A model generated the notes under the pieces. That model worked only from the letters and a program-made list of their open reading frames with translations. It searched no databases and was not told the origin of the DNA. From assembly GCA_017829075.1 (NCBI GenBank), contig JAGAJA010000117.1, forward strand, positions 1 through 44,590: a stretch of 44,590 nt of DNA, written 5' to 3'. How positions within the stretch are numbered: the stretch's first letter is position 1; every line of letters starts with the position of its first letter. The stretch comes from Oscillospiraceae bacterium (GTDB taxonomy: Bacteria > Bacillota_A > Clostridia > Oscillospirales > Ruminococcaceae). The position numbers were made by a program, and so were the translations under genes. Below are positions 4,913 to 44,590 of the stretch, one piece after another.

Positions 4913-5063
4913 TATACTATTTCCTAATCAACCGCCATAGCGGTTGGAGCGGCGAAGCCGCAGGAAAGCCGTTCAATACTGATTCTGTCAAACCCTTTGG
5001 TTTTGACAAGCCGCCTTGCAGGCGGCTCACCTTATAGACTTTGTTTATAAGGTGATTAAGAAT
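4913..5063 (-). repeat. Chained-hairpin intergenic repeat, copy 1
   Basis: About 151 bp matching, in inverted orientation, the repeat at 26275-26455. It consists of consecutive hairpins: CACCTTATA/TATAAGGTG around the core gactttgttt (5028-5054), GCCGCC/GGCGGC, an imperfect GTCAAAACC/GGTTTTGAC pair, GCGGC/GCCGC, and CCAACCG/CGGTTGG. Compared with copy 2 it lacks one 30-bp hairpin module. It lies between a promoter and the ribosome site of the next gene. Confidence 0.85.
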
Positions 5064-5091
5064 CAATATTATAACCACATTGGAGAACGAT

Positions 5092-8326: not shown

Positions 8327-8411
8327 GCGCCTGTGGTGAAATTGGCAGACACGATGGATTTAGGTTCCATTTCCGAGAGGAATGCAGGTTCAAGTCCTGT
8401 CAGGCGCACCA
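8327..8411 (+). tRNA. tRNA-Leu (anticodon UAG)
   Basis: Class II tRNA of 85 nt with encoded CCA. The acceptor stem GCGCCTG (8327-8333) pairs with CAGGCGC (8401-8407), followed by discriminator A and CCA (8409-8411). Anticodon stem ATGGA/TCCAT holds loop TTTAGGT, giving anticodon TAG (UAG), which reads CUN leucine codons. The long variable arm TTCC-GAGA-GGAA and the T-loop TTCAAGT are intact. Confidence 0.97.
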
Positions 8412-8456
8412 GCGTTTTGCCGCGGGAACAACCGCGGCAAAACATCCGATTTTTCT

Positions 8457-8486
8457 CGCCAGTCCCGGAGTGGGACTGGCGTTTTT
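8457..8486 (+). terminator. Terminator of tRNA-Leu transcript
   Basis: Stem CGCCAGTCCC (8457-8466) / GGGACTGGCG (8472-8481) followed by TTTTT (8482-8486). A clear rho-independent terminator inside the first tandem repeat unit. Confidence 0.85.
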
Positions 8487-8855
8487 GCTGTATATACCAG
8501 ATTTACTATCTCGCAGCAAACCGCCCGCAAAAAACGAAAAATCTCGTGCGCCATTACAGCGGTAACGTAGCTCTTTTCCGAAAATCTATTTTGTATACCA
8601 TAGACAAATTTTAGCCGCGCGAACAAGCGCGGCTAAAATTATCCGATTCGAGTTTGGCGCTTGAATATGGGGCTTCGCCCCTGCCGCGCCAAACCGTAAG
8701 TTCTCACCAGCCCCGGAGTGGGACGACTGTTTTGCTGTGTAAACTTTATTTTCGTTGACGCATGAAGCTGACCGCAAAAACCGAAAAATCTCGTGCGCCA
8801 TTACAGTGGTAATGTGGTTTTTCCGAAAATCTATTTTATATAGCATAGACAGTCG

Positions 8856-8899
8856 AGTGCCTCGACACGCATTTCGCGCATTGAGGCACTTTTGTTTTT
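8856..8899 (+). terminator. Terminator-like hairpin in the repeat region
   Basis: AGTGCCTC (8856-8863) / GAGGCACT (8883-8890) followed by TTTTGTTTTT. It resembles a rho-independent terminator but no gene ends just upstream. It sits between repeat units 2 and 3. Confidence 0.55.
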
Positions 8900-9117
8900 C
8901 AGGCTTTCTCCCGCGTTAATAAACTTTTTGTGTACCATAGACAGAGTTTTACCGCGGGAACAACCGCGTCAAACCGCAAGCTCTCGTAGTCCCAGAGGTA
9001 GACTGCAATTTTACTGTATGAAATTATTTCCCATTGTTCGTGAAACAAATTCCAAGATTGAGAAGTCTAAAACGATCATGAAAATTCCCTATTCGATCTG
9101 AAACTTTGAATACTAAA

Positions 9118-11050: not shown

Positions 11051-11112
11051 TTATCTGAGCGCAGCCTGAGCAGCAGCCAGTCTAGCGATCGGAACTCTGA
11101 CGGTGAGCAGGA
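11051..11112 (-). pseudogene. Detached duplicate of the ppdK 3' end
   Basis: 11051-11100 is identical to 12078-12127, the last codons of ppdK including the stop. After a 1-nt deletion the match continues to 11112, giving 62 of 63 positions. The homology begins exactly at the stop codon (TTA on the plus strand). The deletion shifts frame, so the remnant cannot encode protein. It is best explained as the displaced original gene end or as one attachment site of an inserted segment. Confidence 0.85.
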
Positions 11113-11239
11113 TACATACTATCAGCGTAATCGTCAAGACAAAAATGTGCTATATTTATCACAAATATATAATTTCTGCGGGATTTTTGCCCAGCTGTTG
11201 TGAAGTTCTACAAAAGTGACAATAATATCACAACTCCTA

Positions 11240-12077: not shown

Positions 12078-14708
12078 TTATCTGAGCGCAGCCTGAGCAG
12101 CAGCCAGTCTAGCGATCGGAACTCTGAACGGTGAGCAGGAAACGTAGTCCAGACCGATCTCATGGCAGAACTCAACAGATGTCGGGTCGCCGCCGTGCTC
12201 GCCGCAGATACCGCAGTGGAGCTCAGGACGGGTCTTCTTACCAAGCTCGATAGCCATCTTCATGAGCTTGCCAACGCCAACCTGATCGAGCTTTGCAAAC
12301 GGATCGTTCTCGAAGATCTTAGCGTCGTAGTAAGCGCCGAGGAACTTGCCAGCGTCATCTCTGGAGAAGCCGTAGGTCATCTGAGTCAGGTCGTTAGTAC
12401 CGAAGCAGAAGAACTCAGCTTCCTTAGCGATATCGTCAGCGGTCAGAGCAGCACGCGGAATCTCGATCATTGTACCAACAGAGTACTTCAGATCAGCGCC
12501 AGCAGCAGCAATAACCTCGTCAGCAGTCTTAACAACTACGTCCTTAACGTACTTAAGCTCCTTAACTTCGCCAACCAGCGGGATCATGATCTCGGGAGCA
12601 ACGTTCCAGTCGGGGTGCATCTTCTTAACATTGATAGCAGCCTTGATAACAGCAGCTGTCTGCATCTTTGCAATCTCGGGGTAGGTAACAGCCAGACGGC
12701 AGCCACGGTGACCCATCATCGGGTTGAACTCGTGCAGAGAAGCAATGATGTTCTTGATAGTTTCAACAGACTTGCCCTGTGCCTTAGCAAGAGCCTCGAT
12801 GTCAGCCTCCTCAGTGGGAACGAATTCGTGCAGAGGCGGATCAAGGAATCTGATGGTAACAGGATTGCCCTCAAGAGCCTCATACAGAGCCTCGAAGTCA
12901 CCCTGCTGCATCGGCTCGATCTTAGCCAGAGCAGCTTCTCTCTCCTCAACAGTGTCGGAGCAGATCATCTCACGGAATGCCGCAATTCTGTCAGCCTCGA
13001 AGAACATGTGCTCGGTACGGCAAAGACCGATACCCTCAGCGCCCAGCTCTCTAGCCTTCTTAGCGTCAGCAGGAGTATCAGCGTTGGTTCTAACCTTGAG
13101 CTTTCTGTACTTGTCAGCCCAAGCCATTACTCTGCCGAACTCGCCAGCGATAGAAGCGTCAACAGTCGGGATAAGACCGTCATAGATGTTACCGGTTGTA
13201 CCGTCGATAGAGATGCAGTCGCCCTCGTGGTAGGTCTTGCCAGCCAGCTCGAACTTCTTGTTCTCCTCGTCCATCTTGATGTCGCCGCAGCCGGATACGC
13301 AGCAGGTACCCATACCACGAGCAACAACGGCAGCGTGAGAGGTCATACCACCGCGAACGGTCAGGATACCCTGAGATACCTTCATACCTGTGATATCCTC
13401 AGGAGAGGTCTCCAGACGAACCAGAACTACCTTCTCGCCTCTTGCAGCCCATGCCTCAGCGTCGTCAGCGGTGAATACGATCTTACCGCAAGCTGCTCCG
13501 GGAGAAGCGCCAAGGCCCTTGCCAACCGGTGTAGCAGACTTCAGAGCCTTTGCGTCGAACTGCGGGTGGAGCAGTGTGTCGAGGTTTCTGGGGTCGATCA
13601 TAAGAACAGCTTCCTGCTCGGTCTTGTGACCCTCGTCAACGAGGTCGCAAGCGATCTTGAGAGCAGCCTGAGCGGTTCTCTTACCATTACGGCACTGGAG
13701 CATATAGAGCTTCTTGTTCTCTACGGTGAACTCCATGTCCTGCATATCGTGATAGTGGTTCTCAAGAGTCTCGCAAACCTTGATGAACTCTGCGTAAGCC
13801 TCAGGGAACTCCTTCTCCATCTGTGCGATAGGCATAGGAGTACGAACGCCAGCAACAACGTCCTCGCCCTGTGCGTTGATCAGGAACTCGCCCATGAGCT
13901 TCTTCTCACCAGTAGCAGGGTCACGGGTGAATGCAACGCCTGTACCGGACTCGTTGTTCAGGTTACCGAATACCATCGGCATTACGTTTACTGCGGTACC
14001 CCAGCTATACGGGATATCGTTGTCGCGGCGGTATACGTTTGCACGAGGGTTGTCCCATGAACGGAATACAGCCTCAATAGCAAGCTTGAGCTGTACAACA
14101 GGATCAGACGGGAAGTCCTCGCCAAGCTGATTCTTATACTCAGCCTTGAACTGCTCAGCCAGCTCCTTAAGATCAGCAGCGGTCAGGTCGATATCGTACT
14201 GAACGCCCTTCTCTGCCTTCATCTTGTCGATGAGCTGCTCGAAGTACTTCTTGCCGACTTCCATAACTACATCAGAGAACATCTGAATGAAGCGTCTGTA
14301 AGAGTCGTAAACGAATCTCTCAAACTTAGGATCGGGGTTGCCTGCGATCATTGCTGCAACTACCTCGTCGTTAAGACCGAGGTTGAGAATGGTATCCATC
14401 ATGCCGGGCATAGATGCGCGTGCGCCGGAACGAACGGAAACGAGGAGCGGATTCTTGAGATCGCCGAACTTCTTGCCGTTGATCTCCTCCATCTTCTTAA
14501 CGCCCTCCATAGCCTGAGCCATGATCTCGTCGTTGATCTTGCGGCCGTCCTCATAGTACTGAGTGCAAGCCTCTGTCGTGATCGTGAAGCCCTGCGGAAC
14601 GGGAAGACCGATGCTGGTCATCTCGGCAAGGTTTGCGCCCTTACCGCCGAGGAGATTACGCATGGTCATGTCGCCTTCGCTGAACATATAGACCCACTTG
14701 TTTGCCAT
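12078..14708 (-). CDS. ppdK: Pyruvate, phosphate dikinase
   Basis: Interconverts pyruvate, ATP and phosphate with phosphoenolpyruvate, AMP and pyrophosphate, a central step of PPi-type glycolysis in many anaerobes. 876 aa, the usual family length. The nucleotide-binding N-terminus has LLGGKGANLAEM. The phosphohistidine domain has GGMTSHAAVVARG with His458 as phosphoryl carrier and Thr456 in the position of the regulatory threonine. The PEP-binding barrel ends CGICGEHGGDP with the catalytic cysteine. ATG 14708 has AGGAGGT; an upstream in-frame extension to 14813 is not family-like. The leader contains the hairpin GTCAGCG/CGCTGAC (14764-14789). Its 3' end is duplicated at 11051-11112. Confidence 0.97.
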   Translation of the reverse strand: MANKWVYMFSEGDMTMRNLLGGKGANLAEMTSIGLPVPQGFTITTEACTQYYEDGRKINDEIMAQAMEGVKKMEEINGKKFGDLKNPLLVSVRSGARASMPGMMDTILNLGLNDEVVAAMIAGNPDPKFERFVYDSYRRFIQMFSDVVMEVGKKYFEQLIDKMKAEKGVQYDIDLTAADLKELAEQFKAEYKNQLGEDFPSDPVVQLKLAIEAVFRSWDNPRANVYRRDNDIPYSWGTAVNVMPMVFGNLNNESGTGVAFTRDPATGEKKLMGEFLINAQGEDVVAGVRTPMPIAQMEKEFPEAYAEFIKVCETLENHYHDMQDMEFTVENKKLYMLQCRNGKRTAQAALKIACDLVDEGHKTEQEAVLMIDPRNLDTLLHPQFDAKALKSATPVGKGLGASPGAACGKIVFTADDAEAWAARGEKVVLVRLETSPEDITGMKVSQGILTVRGGMTSHAAVVARGMGTCCVSGCGDIKMDEENKKFELAGKTYHEGDCISIDGTTGNIYDGLIPTVDASIAGEFGRVMAWADKYRKLKVRTNADTPADAKKARELGAEGIGLCRTEHMFFEADRIAAFREMICSDTVEEREAALAKIEPMQQGDFEALYEALEGNPVTIRFLDPPLHEFVPTEEADIEALAKAQGKSVETIKNIIASLHEFNPMMGHRGCRLAVTYPEIAKMQTAAVIKAAINVKKMHPDWNVAPEIMIPLVGEVKELKYVKDVVVKTADEVIAAAGADLKYSVGTMIEIPRAALTADDIAKEAEFFCFGTNDLTQMTYGFSRDDAGKFLGAYYDAKIFENDPFAKLDQVGVGKLMKMAIELGKKTRPELHCGICGEHGGDPTSVEFCHEIGLDYVSCSPFRVPIARLAAAQAALR

Positions 14709-25390: not shown

Positions 25391-26269
25391 ATGAACCAGA
25401 AAATTCCTGCAACCATAAGCGAACAAATAGCAAAGCTGCGGCAGCGCGGCTGTATTATAAACGACCAGAAGCTTGCTGAGGAAACGCTGAAATACATCAA
25501 CTATTTCCGGCTCTCCGACTATTTCACCCCATTCACCGTTTCAAAGGGAAAATATGAGGAAGGTACTACCTTTGAAAAGATACTCCGGGTATATGAGGCG
25601 GACAGAAAGCTCCGAAGCATTCTCCTCGCCTCCCTTGAGGAAACGGAAATCGCGATGCGGGCGGCGATATCCAACTACCACGCGCTGAAATACGGCGCGC
25701 TTGGATATCTCAACGCTTCCACCTTCGATTTCCGGCATAATCACCAGCAGTTCATGAACAAGGTGAAACACCTTATCGAAGTGAACGACGACCGGGAATT
25801 CGTGCGGCACTACAACTCGAAATACTGCGGCGCGTTCCCGCTCTGGGTGGTAATGGAGCTGTTCAGCTTCGGCACTCTCGCATTTTTCTACAAGGATATG
25901 CAGAATGCCGATAAAAAGGAGCTTGCCGACAAATATTACGGCTGCTCCAGCTCGGAGCTTGACAACTGGCTGTTCTGCCTGAACGAGCTTCGCAACTACT
26001 GCGCACACTACAACCGGCTTTACGGAAACACCTTCCCGGTAGAGCCGAAAACTCCCCGTAACATGGATATTGAACTAAAGCCGGACGTTTTCGGCTACAT
26101 CATAGTCATGAAGCAGCTTGCGCACAATCATTCCAACTGGAATGAACGGGTAGTTAAGCCCATTTCCCGCCTTATCCGGAAGAATTCCGACATTCTCCGG
26201 CTAAAGGATCTCGGATTTCCGGAGAACTGGGAAGTACTTATCGCATATACCGATATTGAGGATCAATAA
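25391..26269 (+). CDS. Abi_2 (AbiD/AbiF-type) family protein with HEPN motif
   Basis: 292 aa. It matches the abortive-infection Abi_2 pattern: an N-terminal SEQIAKLRQRGCIINDQKLAEETLKYINYFRLSDYF-type segment and a C-terminal LNELRNYCAHYNRLYG. The latter carries R201-x4-H206, the HEPN ribonuclease motif. Likely an RNA-targeting phage-defence effector, though phage resistance is known only for some members. It starts 23 bp after gpsA and may be co-transcribed with it. No antitoxin or partner is evident. Confidence 0.85.
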   Translation: MNQKIPATISEQIAKLRQRGCIINDQKLAEETLKYINYFRLSDYFTPFTVSKGKYEEGTTFEKILRVYEADRKLRSILLASLEETEIAMRAAISNYHALKYGALGYLNASTFDFRHNHQQFMNKVKHLIEVNDDREFVRHYNSKYCGAFPLWVVMELFSFGTLAFFYKDMQNADKKELADKYYGCSSSELDNWLFCLNELRNYCAHYNRLYGNTFPVEPKTPRNMDIELKPDVFGYIIVMKQLAHNHSNWNERVVKPISRLIRKNSDILRLKDLGFPENWEVLIAYTDIEDQ

Positions 26270-26274
26270 TACTA

Positions 26275-26455
26275 ATTCTTAATCACCTTATAGACTTTGT
26301 CTATAAGGTGAGCCGCCTGCAAGGCGGCTAGTCAAAACCTTTGGTTTTGACAGAATCAGTATTGAACGGCTTTCCTGCGGCTTCGCCGCTCCAACCGCCA
26401 TTGCGGTTGGTTCAACCTATAGACTTTGTCTATAGGTTGATCAGGAAATAGTATA
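26275..26455 (+). repeat. Chained-hairpin intergenic repeat, copy 2
   Basis: About 181 bp, the inverted counterpart of 4913-5063. Its hairpins in order: CACCTTATAG/CTATAAGGTG around acttt, GCCGCC/GGCGGC, GTCAAAACC/GGTTTTGAC, GCGGC/GCCGC, CCAACCG/CGGTTGG, and an extra module CAACCTATAG/CTATAGGTTG. The first and last hairpins share the AGACTTTGTCT core but have different matched arms. It fills the gap between the Abi gene and the TerB-domain gene. Confidence 0.88.
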
Positions 26456-34536: not shown

Positions 34537-34553
34537 TAAATCAAGCAAAAACC

Positions 34554-34585
34554 GCGCAGGCTGTTCATAATGAGCAGCCTGCGCT
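34554..34585 (+). repeat. Terminator hairpin, left copy flanking element A
   Basis: A 32-bp sequence with stem GCGCAGGCTG / CAGCCTGCGC, at the expected terminator position for the DUF4956 gene. It is repeated directly at 34776-34807 with 30 of 32 positions identical, the differences being in the loop. Confidence 0.8.
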
Positions 34586-34775
34586 CAGCTTGTCGAAAAA
34601 CTCAGTTTTGCCCGCGAAGCGGGCTTTTGAAATCCGTTTTTTGCCCCAGCTCTGCCGGGGCAAAAAACACTTCTATCCGCACAACTGTGCGAACTGACAG
34701 CTTTGCTGTCAGTGAGTGCGGGCGGTGCGGATGTTCGGCGAGAAAGTCCCTTTAGGGACTTTTTCGACGGTCTGC
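34586..34775 (+). mobile_element. Short inverted-end element A (MITE-like, about 190 bp)
   Basis: The ends are inverted: CAGCTTGTCGAAAAACTC at the left and, read from the right end, CAGACCGTCGAAAAAGTC. The interior holds hairpins such as GCCCGC/GCGGGC, TTTTTTGCCCC/GGGGCAAAAAA, GACAGC/GCTGTC and AGTCCC/GGGACT. No coding capacity. It is bracketed by direct copies of a terminator hairpin. A near-identical copy in the opposite orientation lies at 44417-44590. Confidence 0.75.
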
Positions 34776-34807
34776 GCGCAGGCTGTTCTTAGTGAGCAGC
34801 CTGCGCT
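34776..34807 (+). repeat. Terminator hairpin, right copy flanking element A
   Basis: Direct copy of 34554-34585, immediately after the right inverted end of element A and 13 bp before the end of convergent dprA. It probably still terminates dprA transcripts. Confidence 0.8.
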
Positions 34808-38900: not shown

Positions 38901-41900
38901 ATGAAAAGCAAGATCATCAATAAAATAATATCGCTGGCTGCAGCGCTTATGCTGACGCTCACGATCTGTCCGCCGGGCGCGTATGCCGCCTCCGGTGAAG
39001 AGGCAGTGGTCGTGGGAGTAAACCCCGACTACGGAATATTCTCCGTTGGCGGAAACTACTCCGGATTTGCTCTGGATTATCTGCGTGAGATCAAGAAGCG
39101 TACAGGACAGAACTTCACCTTCGTTGAAGGAACTGCGCCGGAGCTTGCGGCAATGCTGGCAAAGGGCGAGGTGGACATTATCCCCTGCGTAAGCGATAGA
39201 GAGCTTATCGCATGGCAGGCAATGACCTCTGCAAACTCGGACGAACCGGTGAGCCTTTCCCTGTCAGAGATATCTCTCTGGATAAAGCACACAGCGGTTT
39301 ACGCGCGCAATAAGGGAACCGATTCCATCAACTTCAACGACTTCGCAACGCTGAGAAAAAGCAGGATAGGCTACCTTAAAGAGGATTACAGCAAATATTT
39401 CATAAACGGCGCGTTCATCGGCGCAGATCTGCGCAAGGCGGATTTTGTTGGCTATGATACCGAAACCCAGATGAAGACCGACTTCGAGTCCGGCAAGATA
39501 GACGCGGTGGTAAAGGACTGCTTCCGCACATGGGAAAACGAGGTCATTGTATATCAGGTAACTACCGACGACTGCTTTTTCCTTGCTTCCTCTGACGATC
39601 AGGAGCTGCTGGATATGCTTGACGAGGGTGTTGGCAGCATTTTTATGACCGACAGCAGCTTCGCATACGGACTGTATGAGAAGCACGTCTGCAAATACGG
39701 CAGCCAGCGCTACTCCCTCACCGAAACGGAAAAGCATTATCTTGAAAAAAATCCGGAAATAACCGTTGCATTTAACCTCCAGTCCAGCTCAGCGGAATGC
39801 TACGACAGCAGCACTGAGCAGCTCACGGGAGCCACCGCCGAGATAATGGACCAGGTAAGCAGCATCAGTGGTCTGAAGCTCCGGTTCGTTGCCTACGACA
39901 ATCTGACGGACTGCATTTCCGCATTGAACAGCGGCAAGGTTCAGGCTGTCTGCGGAGGAGTAAACGCATACAGCACCGTGAATTATCAGGGTCTGCGTGT
40001 TTCCGCGCCCTATTCCAGAATTCCGATAGCCGCCGCCGGAAAACCCGGAAGCTCCGTCGGTTCGCGTTCAAGAATAGCCATTCCGGCAGGCGCAGACGAT
40101 ATTTCCCAGTATATATCCGAGTGCTACCCCAGCGCTCAGATACTGCACTACGAAAACGAGAAGAAGTGCTTTGAAGCTGTTAAGCGCGGCGAAGCGGACG
40201 CAGTTACCACCAACATATACGACCTTATCTATATGCTGAACAACGGATATGAGGATCTGGAGATCATTGATGTAAAATCCTCATTCCATTCTGAGTGCTT
40301 TGCTTTCGCAAAGGACAACGAAGAGCTGTTCCGCATTATCGGAAAGTCGCTTTTGTGTTACAGCAACAACAACGCACTCACCTCCGCTTTCACCAGCATT
40401 TCCGGCGGCAGCGGCACCACTGAAGCGAACAAGTTCGTTGAAAACTATCTTGTGTGGATCATCGGCGGAATCCTGATCATTCTGGGAGCAGTTTTCGTGG
40501 TGGTATGCCTTTCTTCGTTCCGAACCCGTCATGTTGCAGACATCGACCCGCTTACCGGCGGACGCAGCAAACGAAAGTTCTTTGAGGACGCAAAGAAGCT
40601 GCTCAAAAAGTCCGATCCCGAAAAATGGGCAGTGGTGCTTTTCGACATCGACAAGTTCAAGTACGTCAACGACCGCCTCGGCTATGACGAGGGCAACAGA
40701 ATGCTGGAGCGGCTCCATAAAACCGTTTCCGATCATCTTGACCGGGATGAGATCTTCGCCCGTATGTCCGATGACAATTTCGTAATGGCAGTAAAGAACG
40801 CCACCGACAACGAGCTTACCTCCCGGATCAACGATATTTTCACCGAGTTTGACCGCCGAAACAGCCTTTTTGTGAAATACCCGGTGGTTTTCAGCGCCGG
40901 CATCTGCCGCCTGAACCAGTGTATGCACGAAAGCCGTCACGGTGACGTTGACATCAATGCGGCAATTGACCGCTGCAAGATAGCCAAAAGCACTCTTAAA
41001 GGCACGCACTATTCCTCTATCGCATTCTATGACGGATCGATCCGGGATAAGGCGCTGCGTGAAAAGGACTACGAGAGCGTTATGCCCTCAGCCCTCAAGC
41101 GCCGCGAATTCCAGTGCTACCTCCAGCCGAAGTACGGTCTGCGCTCCCGCAACATTGAGGGTGCCGAGGCTCTGATACGCTGGAACAGCCCGGAATTTGG
41201 CTTTATCTCCCCCGGAGATTTTATCCCGATCGCCGAGAAGAACGGATTCGTGGTGGAGCTGGACTTCTTCATTCTTGAGGAGGTATGCCGCGCTATGCGC
41301 CACTGGCTGGACGAGGGAAAGAAACCGGTTGTGGTTTCTGTAAACCAGTCCAGACTTCACCTCAATTATGACGATTATATCTGGCGGCTTCGTGAAATTG
41401 TCGATAAATACGACATTCCCTATGAATACATCGAGCTGGAGCTTACGGAAAGCGTTTTCACAGAGAATGCCGAAAAGCTGCTCAAGATCATGCACAAGCT
41501 GCACGAGATAGGATTTAAGCTTTCTCTTGACGACTTCGGTTCGGGCTATTCCTCTCTGAATATGCTCAAGGATATCCCGGTTGACGTGGTGAAGATAGAC
41601 AAGGAATTCTTCAACGACACCATGAACACCCAGAAAGGACGTGCGGTTATTTCAACCGTTGTAGACCTCGCCAAAAACCTCGATATGGATGTAATATCCG
41701 AGGGCGTAGAAACCCGCGAGCAGGTGGACTTCCTCACAGAGATCCACTGCGCAATGGTTCAGGGCTACTATTTCGCAAAGCCCATGCCGATCAGCGAGTT
41801 TGAAAAGCTGTGGTACGAGGATCTGGAAGATATCCGCAGGAAAAAGGAACAGGCAGCAGCCCAGCAGCAAAGGCGGCTTAACGCAATGGAGCACAGTAAC

Positions 41901-41966
41901 GCAGATAACGGCTCTGACAGCTCCCGCACAGGCAGCTTACCAAACGGCACTGTTCAGCCGACCTGA
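38901..41966 (+). CDS. Membrane receptor: two SBP_bac_3 domains, degenerate GGDEF, EAL
   Basis: 1021 aa cyclic-di-GMP signalling protein. Signal peptide (1-30), two tandem extracellular amino-acid-type binding domains (about 33-275 and 285-500), membrane helix (516-537), GGDEF-like domain (548-710) and EAL domain (about 730-970). The GGDEF signature is replaced by SDDNF (623-627), so cyclase activity is unlikely. The EAL domain keeps Glu756, Asn815, Glu847, Asp877-Asp878, Lys898, Glu934 and Gln954, so it is probably an active phosphodiesterase. Ligand binding outside would control cyclic-di-GMP breakdown inside. Confidence 0.93.
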   Translation: MKSKIINKIISLAAALMLTLTICPPGAYAASGEEAVVVGVNPDYGIFSVGGNYSGFALDYLREIKKRTGQNFTFVEGTAPELAAMLAKGEVDIIPCVSDRELIAWQAMTSANSDEPVSLSLSEISLWIKHTAVYARNKGTDSINFNDFATLRKSRIGYLKEDYSKYFINGAFIGADLRKADFVGYDTETQMKTDFESGKIDAVVKDCFRTWENEVIVYQVTTDDCFFLASSDDQELLDMLDEGVGSIFMTDSSFAYGLYEKHVCKYGSQRYSLTETEKHYLEKNPEITVAFNLQSSSAECYDSSTEQLTGATAEIMDQVSSISGLKLRFVAYDNLTDCISALNSGKVQAVCGGVNAYSTVNYQGLRVSAPYSRIPIAAAGKPGSSVGSRSRIAIPAGADDISQYISECYPSAQILHYENEKKCFEAVKRGEADAVTTNIYDLIYMLNNGYEDLEIIDVKSSFHSECFAFAKDNEELFRIIGKSLLCYSNNNALTSAFTSISGGSGTTEANKFVENYLVWIIGGILIILGAVFVVVCLSSFRTRHVADIDPLTGGRSKRKFFEDAKKLLKKSDPEKWAVVLFDIDKFKYVNDRLGYDEGNRMLERLHKTVSDHLDRDEIFARMSDDNFVMAVKNATDNELTSRINDIFTEFDRRNSLFVKYPVVFSAGICRLNQCMHESRHGDVDINAAIDRCKIAKSTLKGTHYSSIAFYDGSIRDKALREKDYESVMPSALKRREFQCYLQPKYGLRSRNIEGAEALIRWNSPEFGFISPGDFIPIAEKNGFVVELDFFILEEVCRAMRHWLDEGKKPVVVSVNQSRLHLNYDDYIWRLREIVDKYDIPYEYIELELTESVFTENAEKLLKIMHKLHEIGFKLSLDDFGSGYSSLNMLKDIPVDVVKIDKEFFNDTMNTQKGRAVISTVVDLAKNLDMDVISEGVETREQVDFLTEIHCAMVQGYYFAKPMPISEFEKLWYEDLEDIRRKKEQAAAQQQRRLNAMEHSNADNGSDSSRTGSLPNGTVQPT

Positions 41967-41978
41967 CGCAGATTAAAA

Positions 41979-42007
41979 AAATGCGGAGGCACTGTCCTCC
42001 GCATTTT
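41979..42007 (+). terminator. Terminator of the EAL-receptor gene, left copy flanking element C
   Basis: AAATGCGGAGG (41979-41989) / CCTCCGCATTT (41996-42006) followed by T. The 27 bp 41980-42006 are repeated without mismatch at 42139-42165. Confidence 0.85.
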
Positions 42008-42138
42008 CAACTTGTAGAAAAAGTCTCTTTTCAGGGTGGCGAGAAGCCGTCAGATTCTAGGAACCCGCATAGCGGCTAGGCTTAGTACCTGCCGTTATGC
42101 GGGGTGACGACGAAGATGATGGTTTATCGACAGCCTGT
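42007..42138 (+). mobile_element. Short inverted-end element C (MITE-like, about 132 bp)
   Basis: The left end reads CAACTTGTAGAAAAAGTC and the right end, read inward, CAGGCTGTCGATAAACC. Both match the ends of element A. The interior differs from A and contains CCGCATAGCGG-like and GCATAACGG-like segments. No coding capacity. It sits between perfect 27-bp copies of a terminator hairpin. Confidence 0.65.
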
Positions 42139-42165
42139 AATGCGGAGGCACTGTCCTCCGCATTT
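42139..42165 (+). repeat. Terminator hairpin, right copy flanking element C
   Basis: Perfect 27-bp direct copy of 41980-42006, just before the ribosome site of the alpha/beta hydrolase gene. Its present position would hinder read-through into that gene. Confidence 0.85.
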
Positions 42166-42187
42166 CATTTCATATAAAGGAGCAGCC

Positions 42188-42937
42188 ATGACATCATATA
42201 TTATCAGGATCGGAGATATTCCGGTAAAAATCTATACAAACGGCGCGTCAGAGCGCACAATACTCGCGGTACACGGCTTCGGCGGCAGCAAGGACAGCCT
42301 TGCGATAGAGGGACTTGCACGGCGGCTGTGCAGCAAAGGCTTCCGTGTCGCAGCCCCGGATCTTCCCTGCCACGGAGAGCGCACCGAAAACGAAACCAAG
42401 CTCACCCCGGAACGCTGCGTTTCAGACATCATGACAGCGGAGGACTGGCTTGCGGAACAGTTCGGCGGCGAAATATCCGCGTTTGCGACAAGTTTCGGAG
42501 CCTGCTGTGTTCTTCGGCGGCTGGAGCTTCGCGAGAACCGCTTCCGCCGCATTGTGCTGAGAGTTCCGGCGGTGAACATGGCGGACTCCATGCTGCGCTG
42601 CATGAAGCTCTTTCAGCCGGATTTTACGCTGGAAAAAGCCCAAACCGAGGGATTTCATGTCAAAATGAGCCGTGAACTGCATATCCCTTTTTCATTCTAC
42701 GATCTGCTTCTCGCCATGAACGAGGTTCGGCACTGTGAAGCGTGGAACAGCCCGGATATCCTGACGATATATTCCGGAAAGGACGAGCTTGTCGCCCGCG
42801 CCGATACCGAGGAATTCCTCCGGCTCAATCCCTCGATTCAGAGAATGTGCCTTGAGGAAAGCGGCCACCGAATGGCGGAAAAGCCGGAATTCCTTGAAGC
42901 GGCGCTGGATCGTGCCGCAGAGTTCCTTTCTGAATAA
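42188..42937 (+). CDS. Alpha/beta hydrolase
   Basis: 249 aa, cytoplasmic, no signal peptide. The oxyanion-hole motif HGFGGSKDS is near 29, the nucleophile elbow is FATSFGACC with the predicted Ser in place of GxSxG (TSFG; first Gly replaced by Ala), Asp is in YSGKDELVARAD, and His in EESGHRMAE. It resembles serine esterases or acyl-peptide hydrolases; substrate unknown. ATG 42188 has AAAGGAG; an upstream in-frame extension would run into the repeat region. Confidence 0.85.
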   Translation: MTSYIIRIGDIPVKIYTNGASERTILAVHGFGGSKDSLAIEGLARRLCSKGFRVAAPDLPCHGERTENETKLTPERCVSDIMTAEDWLAEQFGGEISAFATSFGACCVLRRLELRENRFRRIVLRVPAVNMADSMLRCMKLFQPDFTLEKAQTEGFHVKMSRELHIPFSFYDLLLAMNEVRHCEAWNSPDILTIYSGKDELVARADTEEFLRLNPSIQRMCLEESGHRMAEKPEFLEAALDRAAEFLSE

Positions 42938-44350: not shown

Positions 44351-44415
44351 TATAATACTAATAGCAAATCTTCTTATAGACTTTGTCTATAAGAAGATGC
44401 CGCCGAATCGGCGGC
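44351..44415 (+). repeat. AGACTTTGTCT-core hairpin and GC hairpin at the right edge
   Basis: A -10-like TATAAT (44351-44356) precedes the hairpin ATCTTCTTATAG/CTATAAGAAGAT around the AGACTTTGTCT core (about 44368-44398). GCCGCC-GAATC-GGCGGC follows (44399-44415). The first hairpin shares its core with 5028-5054 and both end modules of 26275-26455 but has its own matched arms. Confidence 0.75.
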
Positions 44416-44416
44416 T

Positions 44417-44590
44417 GCAGACCGTCGAAAAAGTCCCTAAAGGGACTTTCTCGCCGAACATCCGCCCTGCCCGCGTAAGGCATAAGGCGTAAGCCGTTGC
44501 CAGTACACTTGTGCGGATAGAAGTGTTTTTTGCCCCGGCAGAGCTGGGGCAAAAAACGGATTTCAAAAGCCCGCTTCGCGGGCAAAACTG
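44417..44590 (-). mobile_element. Short inverted-end element B, truncated by window edge
   Basis: Near-identical, in opposite orientation, to element A (34586-34775): the end CAGACCGTCGAAAAAGTC (from 44418) is followed by AGTCCC/GGGACT, then TTTTTTGCCCC/GGGGCAAAAAA and the GCCCGC/GCGGGC hairpin. A middle segment of about 40 bp (about 44471-44508) differs from A. The second end would lie a few bases past the window. Confidence 0.75.

Follow-up and report, generated by a model that had tools for sequence, protein, structure and literature searches.

Small elements with IS1182-type ends lie between duplicated hairpins in an Oscillospiraceae bacterium and its relatives

The window, that is, the whole stretch of 44,590 nucleotides of Oscillospiraceae DNA analysed here, carries a gene for an SBP_bac_3-GGDEF-EAL protein followed by a gene for an alpha/beta hydrolase. 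The space between the two genes is occupied by a small element (element C) with a hairpin on each side. The features are as follows, L and G numbers denoting loci and genomes, respectively.

38901..41966, + strand: SBP_bac_3-GGDEF-EAL protein gene, upstream of element C; its product served as the query for relatives.
41980..42006, no strand: left hairpin copy, 27 bp; perfect direct repeat; fold of -18.1 kcal/mol; single copy at the orthologous site in L001.
42007..42138 (strict ends 42008-42137), + strand: element C, read as a non-autonomous IS1182-type element, without a transposase gene; 93% identity to L051.
42008..42025, + strand: left terminal repeat of element C, CAACTTGTAGAAAAAGTC; found by motif search and matching the end of L230.
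42121..42137, - strand: right terminal repeat of element C, CAGGCTGTCGATAAACC; found by motif search, with the same end in G001 copies.
42139..42165, no strand: right hairpin copy, 27 bp; perfect direct repeat and fold.
42188..42937, + strand: alpha/beta hydrolase gene, downstream of element C.

As the original prediction had stated, the 27-nt hairpin sequence is present twice without a mismatch, and 132 bp lie between the two copies. Their spacing is 159. By its CA...TG ends the element proper is 130 bp long, one additional T flanking it at each end. It starts with CAACTTGTAGAAAAAGTC and finishes as the reverse complement of CAGGCTGTCGATAAACC, it is 93% identical over its whole length to a 131-bp copy in G001 (L051), and no open reading frame of 25 or more amino acids lies wholly within it. 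The left hairpin copy follows the stop codon of the EAL/GGDEF gene by 13 nt, and the two copies fold at -18.1 and -17.1 kcal/mol, values matched in none of 200 shuffles. A simple terminator scan called neither copy a terminator, and the T-tract is short. The name terminator is therefore taken from the fold and from the place just behind the EAL gene, which together suggest that the hairpin is one. The claim that the terminator of this gene has been duplicated stands as regards a well-folding hairpin behind the stop codon, but it is not borne out by the terminator scan. Element C as a whole can adopt a long, imperfect hairpin fold (-57.7 kcal/mol, z -6.05; window 42008-42137). Upstream, the frame of the hydrolase gene stays open across the right hairpin copy and reaches a GTG within the element, at 42104 (window 42104-42937); the ATG at 42188, which is preceded by AAAGGAG, is the likelier start.

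A second element of this kind, element A, lies upstream in the window, and a further copy of its family is found at the window end.

34553..34585, no strand: left hairpin copy around element A, 33 bp, with 2 mismatches to the right copy; a single hairpin in L215.
34586..34774, + strand: element A, 189 bp; same kind of ends as element C, unrelated interior.
34775..34807, no strand: right hairpin copy around element A, 33 bp; by repeat comparison and fold.
44418..44590, - strand: second copy of element A's family, truncated by the end of the window; 88% identity to 34603-34775.

Two unrelated hairpins are thus duplicated around elements in the window, and the ends of C align with those of A, both as predicted. 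The left-end motif CAACTTGTAGAAAAAGTC of element C, at 42008, matches the left end of element A, at 34586, with 3 mismatches, whereas the interiors have nothing in common past a chance match of 8 bp (E 0.23). The left-end motif occurs 4 times in the window, where shuffles lead one to expect 0.04, and 2 of the 4 matches belong to a different repeat. The right-end motif does not reach significance in the window when taken alone, its single match being itself, and 12 of 100 shuffles contain at least one match. Element A is 79-83% identical to the three G003 copies with which it was compared. Its second copy lies 2 nt from a hairpin at 44399-44415, which lies at the edge of the third occurrence (44352-44404) of a separate repeat family with palindromes around TATAGACTTTGTCTATA. 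The first two occurrences of that family (4926-5072 and 26266-26412) are 90% identical and inverted, and the last two are 83% identical; the second copy of element A and this repeat may be nested. Other repeats in the window include several diverged intergenic ones at 8410-8973 (80-91% identity), directly behind a tRNA at 8327-8408, and a duplicated 3' end of a PPDK-type gene (69 bp, 96%; 11051-11118 and 12078-12146), the duplicate lying about 1 kb past the gene. At gathering thresholds, an Rfam scan of the window returned tRNA alone.

Relatives of the locus were collected with the EAL protein as the query in genome contigs, which yielded 18 loci. In the closest relative (L001, protein 91% identical), the site orthologous to that of element C has one hairpin, AATGCGGAGGCACGTCCTCCGCATT, and no element, and L002 and L009 also have one hairpin each at this site. 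The site orthologous to that of element A, in the same genome as L001 (L215), likewise has a single hairpin without an element, so that both A and C show target duplication and have an empty counterpart site. In L003/L083 the hairpin of the same orthologous gene holds a different element, of 304 bp, between two hairpin copies, an insertion independent of element C.

A census of small elements covered the window, G001 (the genome of L001), G003 (the genome of L003) and G144, a genome from the family sample whose end-pattern matches are on one contig of 2.69 Mb, nearly all of G144. The end pattern has more matches than its reversed control in G001 (80 vs 30) and G003 (52 vs 19), as does a similar pattern in G144 (165 vs 40). 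In G002 and G004 the end pattern is not clearly more frequent than the control, and the strict 18-base pattern is present in 5 of 297 family genomes, including G001. Twenty places each in G001 and G003 were taken from among the matches listed, contig-end matches there yielding no pair, and 32 regions of G144 were picked from the listed end-pattern matches without regard to their flanks. Both ends of a pair had to show at most 1 mismatch and to lie 50-650 bp apart, and elements with poorer ends, such as L072, are outside the count. Pairing by ends alone gave, among the matches listed, 73 candidates (window 2, G001 14, G003 15 and G144 42).

The original prediction held that copies gathered by their end consensus would be flanked by direct repeats that fold, and the census agrees with it. 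A whole hairpin of 21-33 bp is duplicated in 51 of the 73 candidates, and a long duplication with a weak hairpin is found in 3 more. Eight candidates have a duplication of 7-10 bp and no hairpin, and 11 have no duplication, one of the latter (L068) being a false pair in coding sequence. In the same duplication test, 1 of 720 flank pairs from different elements and 3 of 3000 random pairs were positive. A hairpin (score of at least 7) adjoins the left end in 55 of the 73, compared to 66 of 3000 random places. In 50 of the 51 whole-hairpin cases the stem foot and the edge of the duplication are at most 2 nt apart on both sides, and the length of the duplication follows that of the hairpin (r = 0.94).

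The C family has at least 12 complete copies of 130-131 bp in G001, and the A family has copies in G003 in addition to the two in the window. The count for the C family excludes a 64-bp derivative (L060:301-364), which has both ends and an 8-bp duplication, and so little beyond the ends may be enough for movement. Elements can also adjoin one another. In L128 there are two in a row with three hairpin copies. In L137 (2962-3419, G144) the loop of the element's right hairpin is the reverse complement of that of its left hairpin, and the element adjoins another with the same hairpin, making three copies, one of them inverted.

The elements had been proposed to target terminators, and the hairpins found are indeed mostly terminator-like. 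However, AT-rich weak palindromes of 15 and 19 bp are duplicated whole in L111 and L138, and eight copies have duplications of 7-10 bp without a hairpin. The target is therefore better described as a hairpin or palindrome than as a terminator as such. The same observations bear on the view that it is transcription that leads the transposase to terminators, through RNA polymerase, a termination factor or the hairpin of the nascent RNA, rather than the hairpin in DNA. T- or A-rich flanks, as at terminators, accompany 50 of the 51 duplicated hairpins but only 1287 of 5000 random places, as this view would have it. However, a tether of this kind would not be expected to place the edges of the duplication at the stem foot over sizes from 21 to 33 bp, nor to duplicate the weak palindromes of L111 and L138, and the second copy of element A sits beside a hairpin which is apparently part of another repeat. 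We consider guidance by transcription unlikely, and prefer recognition of the hairpin in DNA.

The enzyme that might recognize such hairpins is indicated by larger elements with the same ends. An end-pattern scan of viral contigs found L159, which carries a 1593-bp insertion sequence with the ends CAGACTGTCGAAAAAGTC and CAGACCGTAGAAAAACCC around a 490-aa protein. This protein is an IS1182 transposase (NCBIfam NF033551, 407 bits, cut-off 270) with the Pfam domains DDE_Tnp_1_6 and DUF772. A full-length parent with the same ends and a transposase, as foreseen in the original prediction, thus exists in the IS1182 family, in L159 and others. The IS1182 model was applied to the L159 protein alone; other genome copies were assigned by similarity, and five plasmid copies are annotated as IS1182. 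With the L159 protein as the query, matches, many of which are partial or distant, were obtained in 84 of 396 family genomes, and the viral contigs returned L159 itself alone. Twenty-one full-length copies were assembled from these sources: 13 of 30 genome loci, L159, two further copies in G350, and 5 of 6 plasmid loci. The other 17 genome loci (L199 among them) had a missing, cut or unconvincing end, and at the plasmid locus left out (L227) the right end alone is visible, next to a hairpin. L229 and L232 are repeats of L197 and L184 and were counted once. Distant relatives were not counted: L233, L234, L236 and L237 had no end pair, and L235 had a poor pair without duplication. In L196 and L207 the transposase frame contains stops.

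Some members of the IS1182 family have variable direct repeats and palindromic targets, and a hairpin target, as reported for such members, is seen in 20 of the 21 full-length copies, which have a hairpin at both ends. The hairpins are identical copies of 20-39 bp in 12 of the 20 and differ from each other in 8; the remaining full-length copy, L189, has an 8-bp duplication. Two of the 12 (on Peribacillus sp. R9-11 and Sutcliffiella horikoshii plasmids) and three of the 8 are from complete plasmids, the genera being Thermocaproicibacter, Exiguobacterium, Peribacillus and Sutcliffiella. Terminal inverted repeats are present at both ends of elements of about 1.5-1.8 kb in 20 copies, and their 40 ends are near-uniform, CAG..TGT.GA.AAA, in agreement with the ends of the small elements. 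Bases 1-20 of element C correspond to the end of L230, a full-length copy (95%, E 9e-4), and bases 171-189 of element A to that of L159 (95%, E 0.005). The occurrence of the same ends on unrelated interiors and on full-length insertion sequences supports the proposal that the ends are recognized by a common enzyme. Since the full-length IS1182 insertion sequences share both the ends and the hairpin flanks, elements A and C are taken to be non-autonomous elements of the IS1182 type.

The interiors of MITEs are commonly derived from the parent by deletion, although this is not required. When six small elements were compared with the 20 full-length copies, five matched at the ends only (inner matches of at most 20 bp, E of at least 0.45), and the sixth, the L083 element, had no match at E 1. 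These six are therefore not simple deletion products of those 20 copies, although small elements of this kind may derive from another parent. None of six element-bearing genomes (G001, G003, G144, G178, G041 and G301) has an IS1182 transposase above the cut-off; G144 and G301 have matches far below it, of 49 bits with a stop and of 60 bits, respectively. In a search of 12 window-related genomes for DDE_Tnp_1_6, two had matches, one of them over the cut-off, and the surroundings of the latter match were without the ends of A and C.

The copies with two different hairpins bear on another explanation, in which insertion removes the target hairpin and the hairpins at the flanks have some other origin. 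Deletion or replacement of the stem-loop, without target duplication, is reported for IS1272, a member of the family whose insertions have been compared (PMC5678879, PMC4923244, in the portions available), and two different hairpins flank 8 of the 21 full-length copies. However, relatives have one hairpin at the very place where the occupied site has two, and loss of the hairpin without duplication was found neither at the A and C sites nor at the loci traced in G219. These loci concern L187, the one of the eight different-hairpin copies that was traced. It has the structure left1-H1-IS-H2-right2, and two other G219 contigs, which end or begin in the same insertion sequence, have the reciprocal joins, left2-H2-IS and IS-H1-right1. 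Single hairpins without an insertion are present at the H1 locus in G037 and G149 and at the H2 locus in G037. L187 has the structure expected either if two copies, both with a duplicated hairpin of their own, had undergone an exchange, or if the assembler had made a misjoin; a misjoin is less likely for the three different-hairpin copies in complete plasmid records. Judging from this one copy of the eight, no separate mechanism would be needed for the different-hairpin class, and replacement of the hairpin is very improbable as an account of the elements described here.

Another possibility is that the small elements are moved by an enzyme of a different family, such as ISAs1, whose ends are similar by chance. 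A search of four genomes for DDE_Tnp_1 found a transposase with DDE_Tnp_1 and DDE_Tnp_1_assoc, which we take to be of the ISAs1 type, in the element-rich genome G003, and a broken one in G144. However, a CAG-like sequence beside the G003 gene is not the end of that element, whose copies show the terminal sequence CACGGCAACAGCATTTAC, different from the ends of A and C, and ends of the A/C type are on the 20 full-length IS1182 copies, in a comparison that covered a subset of transposase families. A parent from another family is thus extremely improbable. The hairpins could also have arisen by tandem duplication, belong to the element as a hairpin-element cassette or reflect an artefact of assembly, but this is scarcely credible: MAG assemblies do break at such repeats and some contigs end within elements, but the hairpins vary from copy to copy while the two sides match, flanks from different elements match in only 1 of 720 pairs, and the pattern recurs in the 2.69-Mb contig of G144 and in complete plasmids.

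The explanation we prefer is that A and C are very probably non-autonomous, MITE-like elements with terminal repeats of the IS1182 family, which are moved in trans by a hairpin-preferring enzyme, with the whole hairpin being copied upon insertion. Comparison of sequences establishes that the ends are shared, that insertion takes place at the foot of the stem with the whole hairpin duplicated, and that there are empty sites as well as full-length elements of the same ends and target. In flat DNA, it shows duplications of 7-10 bp instead. The steps of the transposition itself would be as follows. A transposase of the IS1182 type would be supplied in trans, with a preference for DNA hairpins, mostly terminator-like ones after genes. 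The target would be an extruded cruciform, in which the two feet of the palindrome come to lie next to each other, on opposite strands, and the transposase would join the 3' ends of the element to the 5' feet of the stem, on opposite strands. Repair of the gaps would then copy the entire hairpin, which would come to stand at each end of the element, an arrangement that would reduce the damage to neighbouring genes.

The target stagger of DDE transposases is normally regarded as fixed. We lean towards the view that here a DDE enzyme reads the structure of DNA, that it is the size of the target hairpin, not the enzyme, that determines how long the duplication becomes (15-39 bp seen, with about 8 bp in flat DNA), and that small elements with unrelated interiors exploit a niche in which terminators are copied. 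If this is true, insertions that copy a terminator leave a terminator hairpin on both sides, which offers a niche to many small elements: such a repeat can fill the spaces behind genes while a hairpin stays on each side. It may also account for the duplicated terminators and the contig breaks of such genomes. Target choice guided by structure is directly testable here, the elements being small and their ends well defined.

The comparison with known systems is based on the available portions of the papers cited. Elements of the IS1182 family that use hairpins have been described in several hosts. IS1272/TnSha1 of Staphylococcus inserts into stem-loops without sequence preference, several of them confirmed terminators (PMC5678879, PMC4923244), and both papers cite Siguier et al. 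for palindromic targets in the family. IS1272/TnSha1 is thus like elements A and C in family and in target, but the hairpin is lost there and is duplicated whole here. In Clostridium, all sites of ISCbo5 but one are hairpins at gene ends, as are the sites of A and C, the host being of another clostridial group; the portions available mention neither a duplication length nor small derivatives (PMC3098183). In a paper on an IS1182-type element of Thermoanaerobacter kivui, IS1182-related transposases are said to act with or without duplication and perhaps to recognize DNA structure, a general account in which, as far as it is available, hairpin duplication does not figure (PMC12056078). The ISMac2-related MITEs of Methanosarcina acetivorans (160-169 bp) are small and non-autonomous like A and C and are also of the IS1182 family (PMC3852290). 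Together with ISPse1 (PMC3281130) and ISCaa15 (PMC3196728), of the same family, they are listed with direct repeats of 4 or 0 bp (4 bp for ISPse1 and ISCaa15) and, unlike A and C, show no hairpin target in the text available.

Targeting of hairpins or terminators by the IS1182 family is therefore already published for IS1272 and ISCbo5, and the hairpin sites of ISCbo5 (PMC3098183), taken with the structure recognition considered for IS1182-related transposases (PMC12056078), mean that the use of terminators by this family was known before. Whole-hairpin duplication is drawn, without data, as the hypothetical pathway b for IS1272 (PMC5678879), and we saw no report of its occurrence with IS1182 elements in the open-access literature available. 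Duplication of the whole hairpin in quantity, together with families of small elements living on hairpins, appears to be new to that literature. Insertions of the A/C type correspond to pathway b: in 63 of them (51 small and 12 full-length) the duplication is the target hairpin, beside duplications of 7-10 bp in flat DNA, and they provide natural data for a pathway that the authors on IS1272 could only draw.
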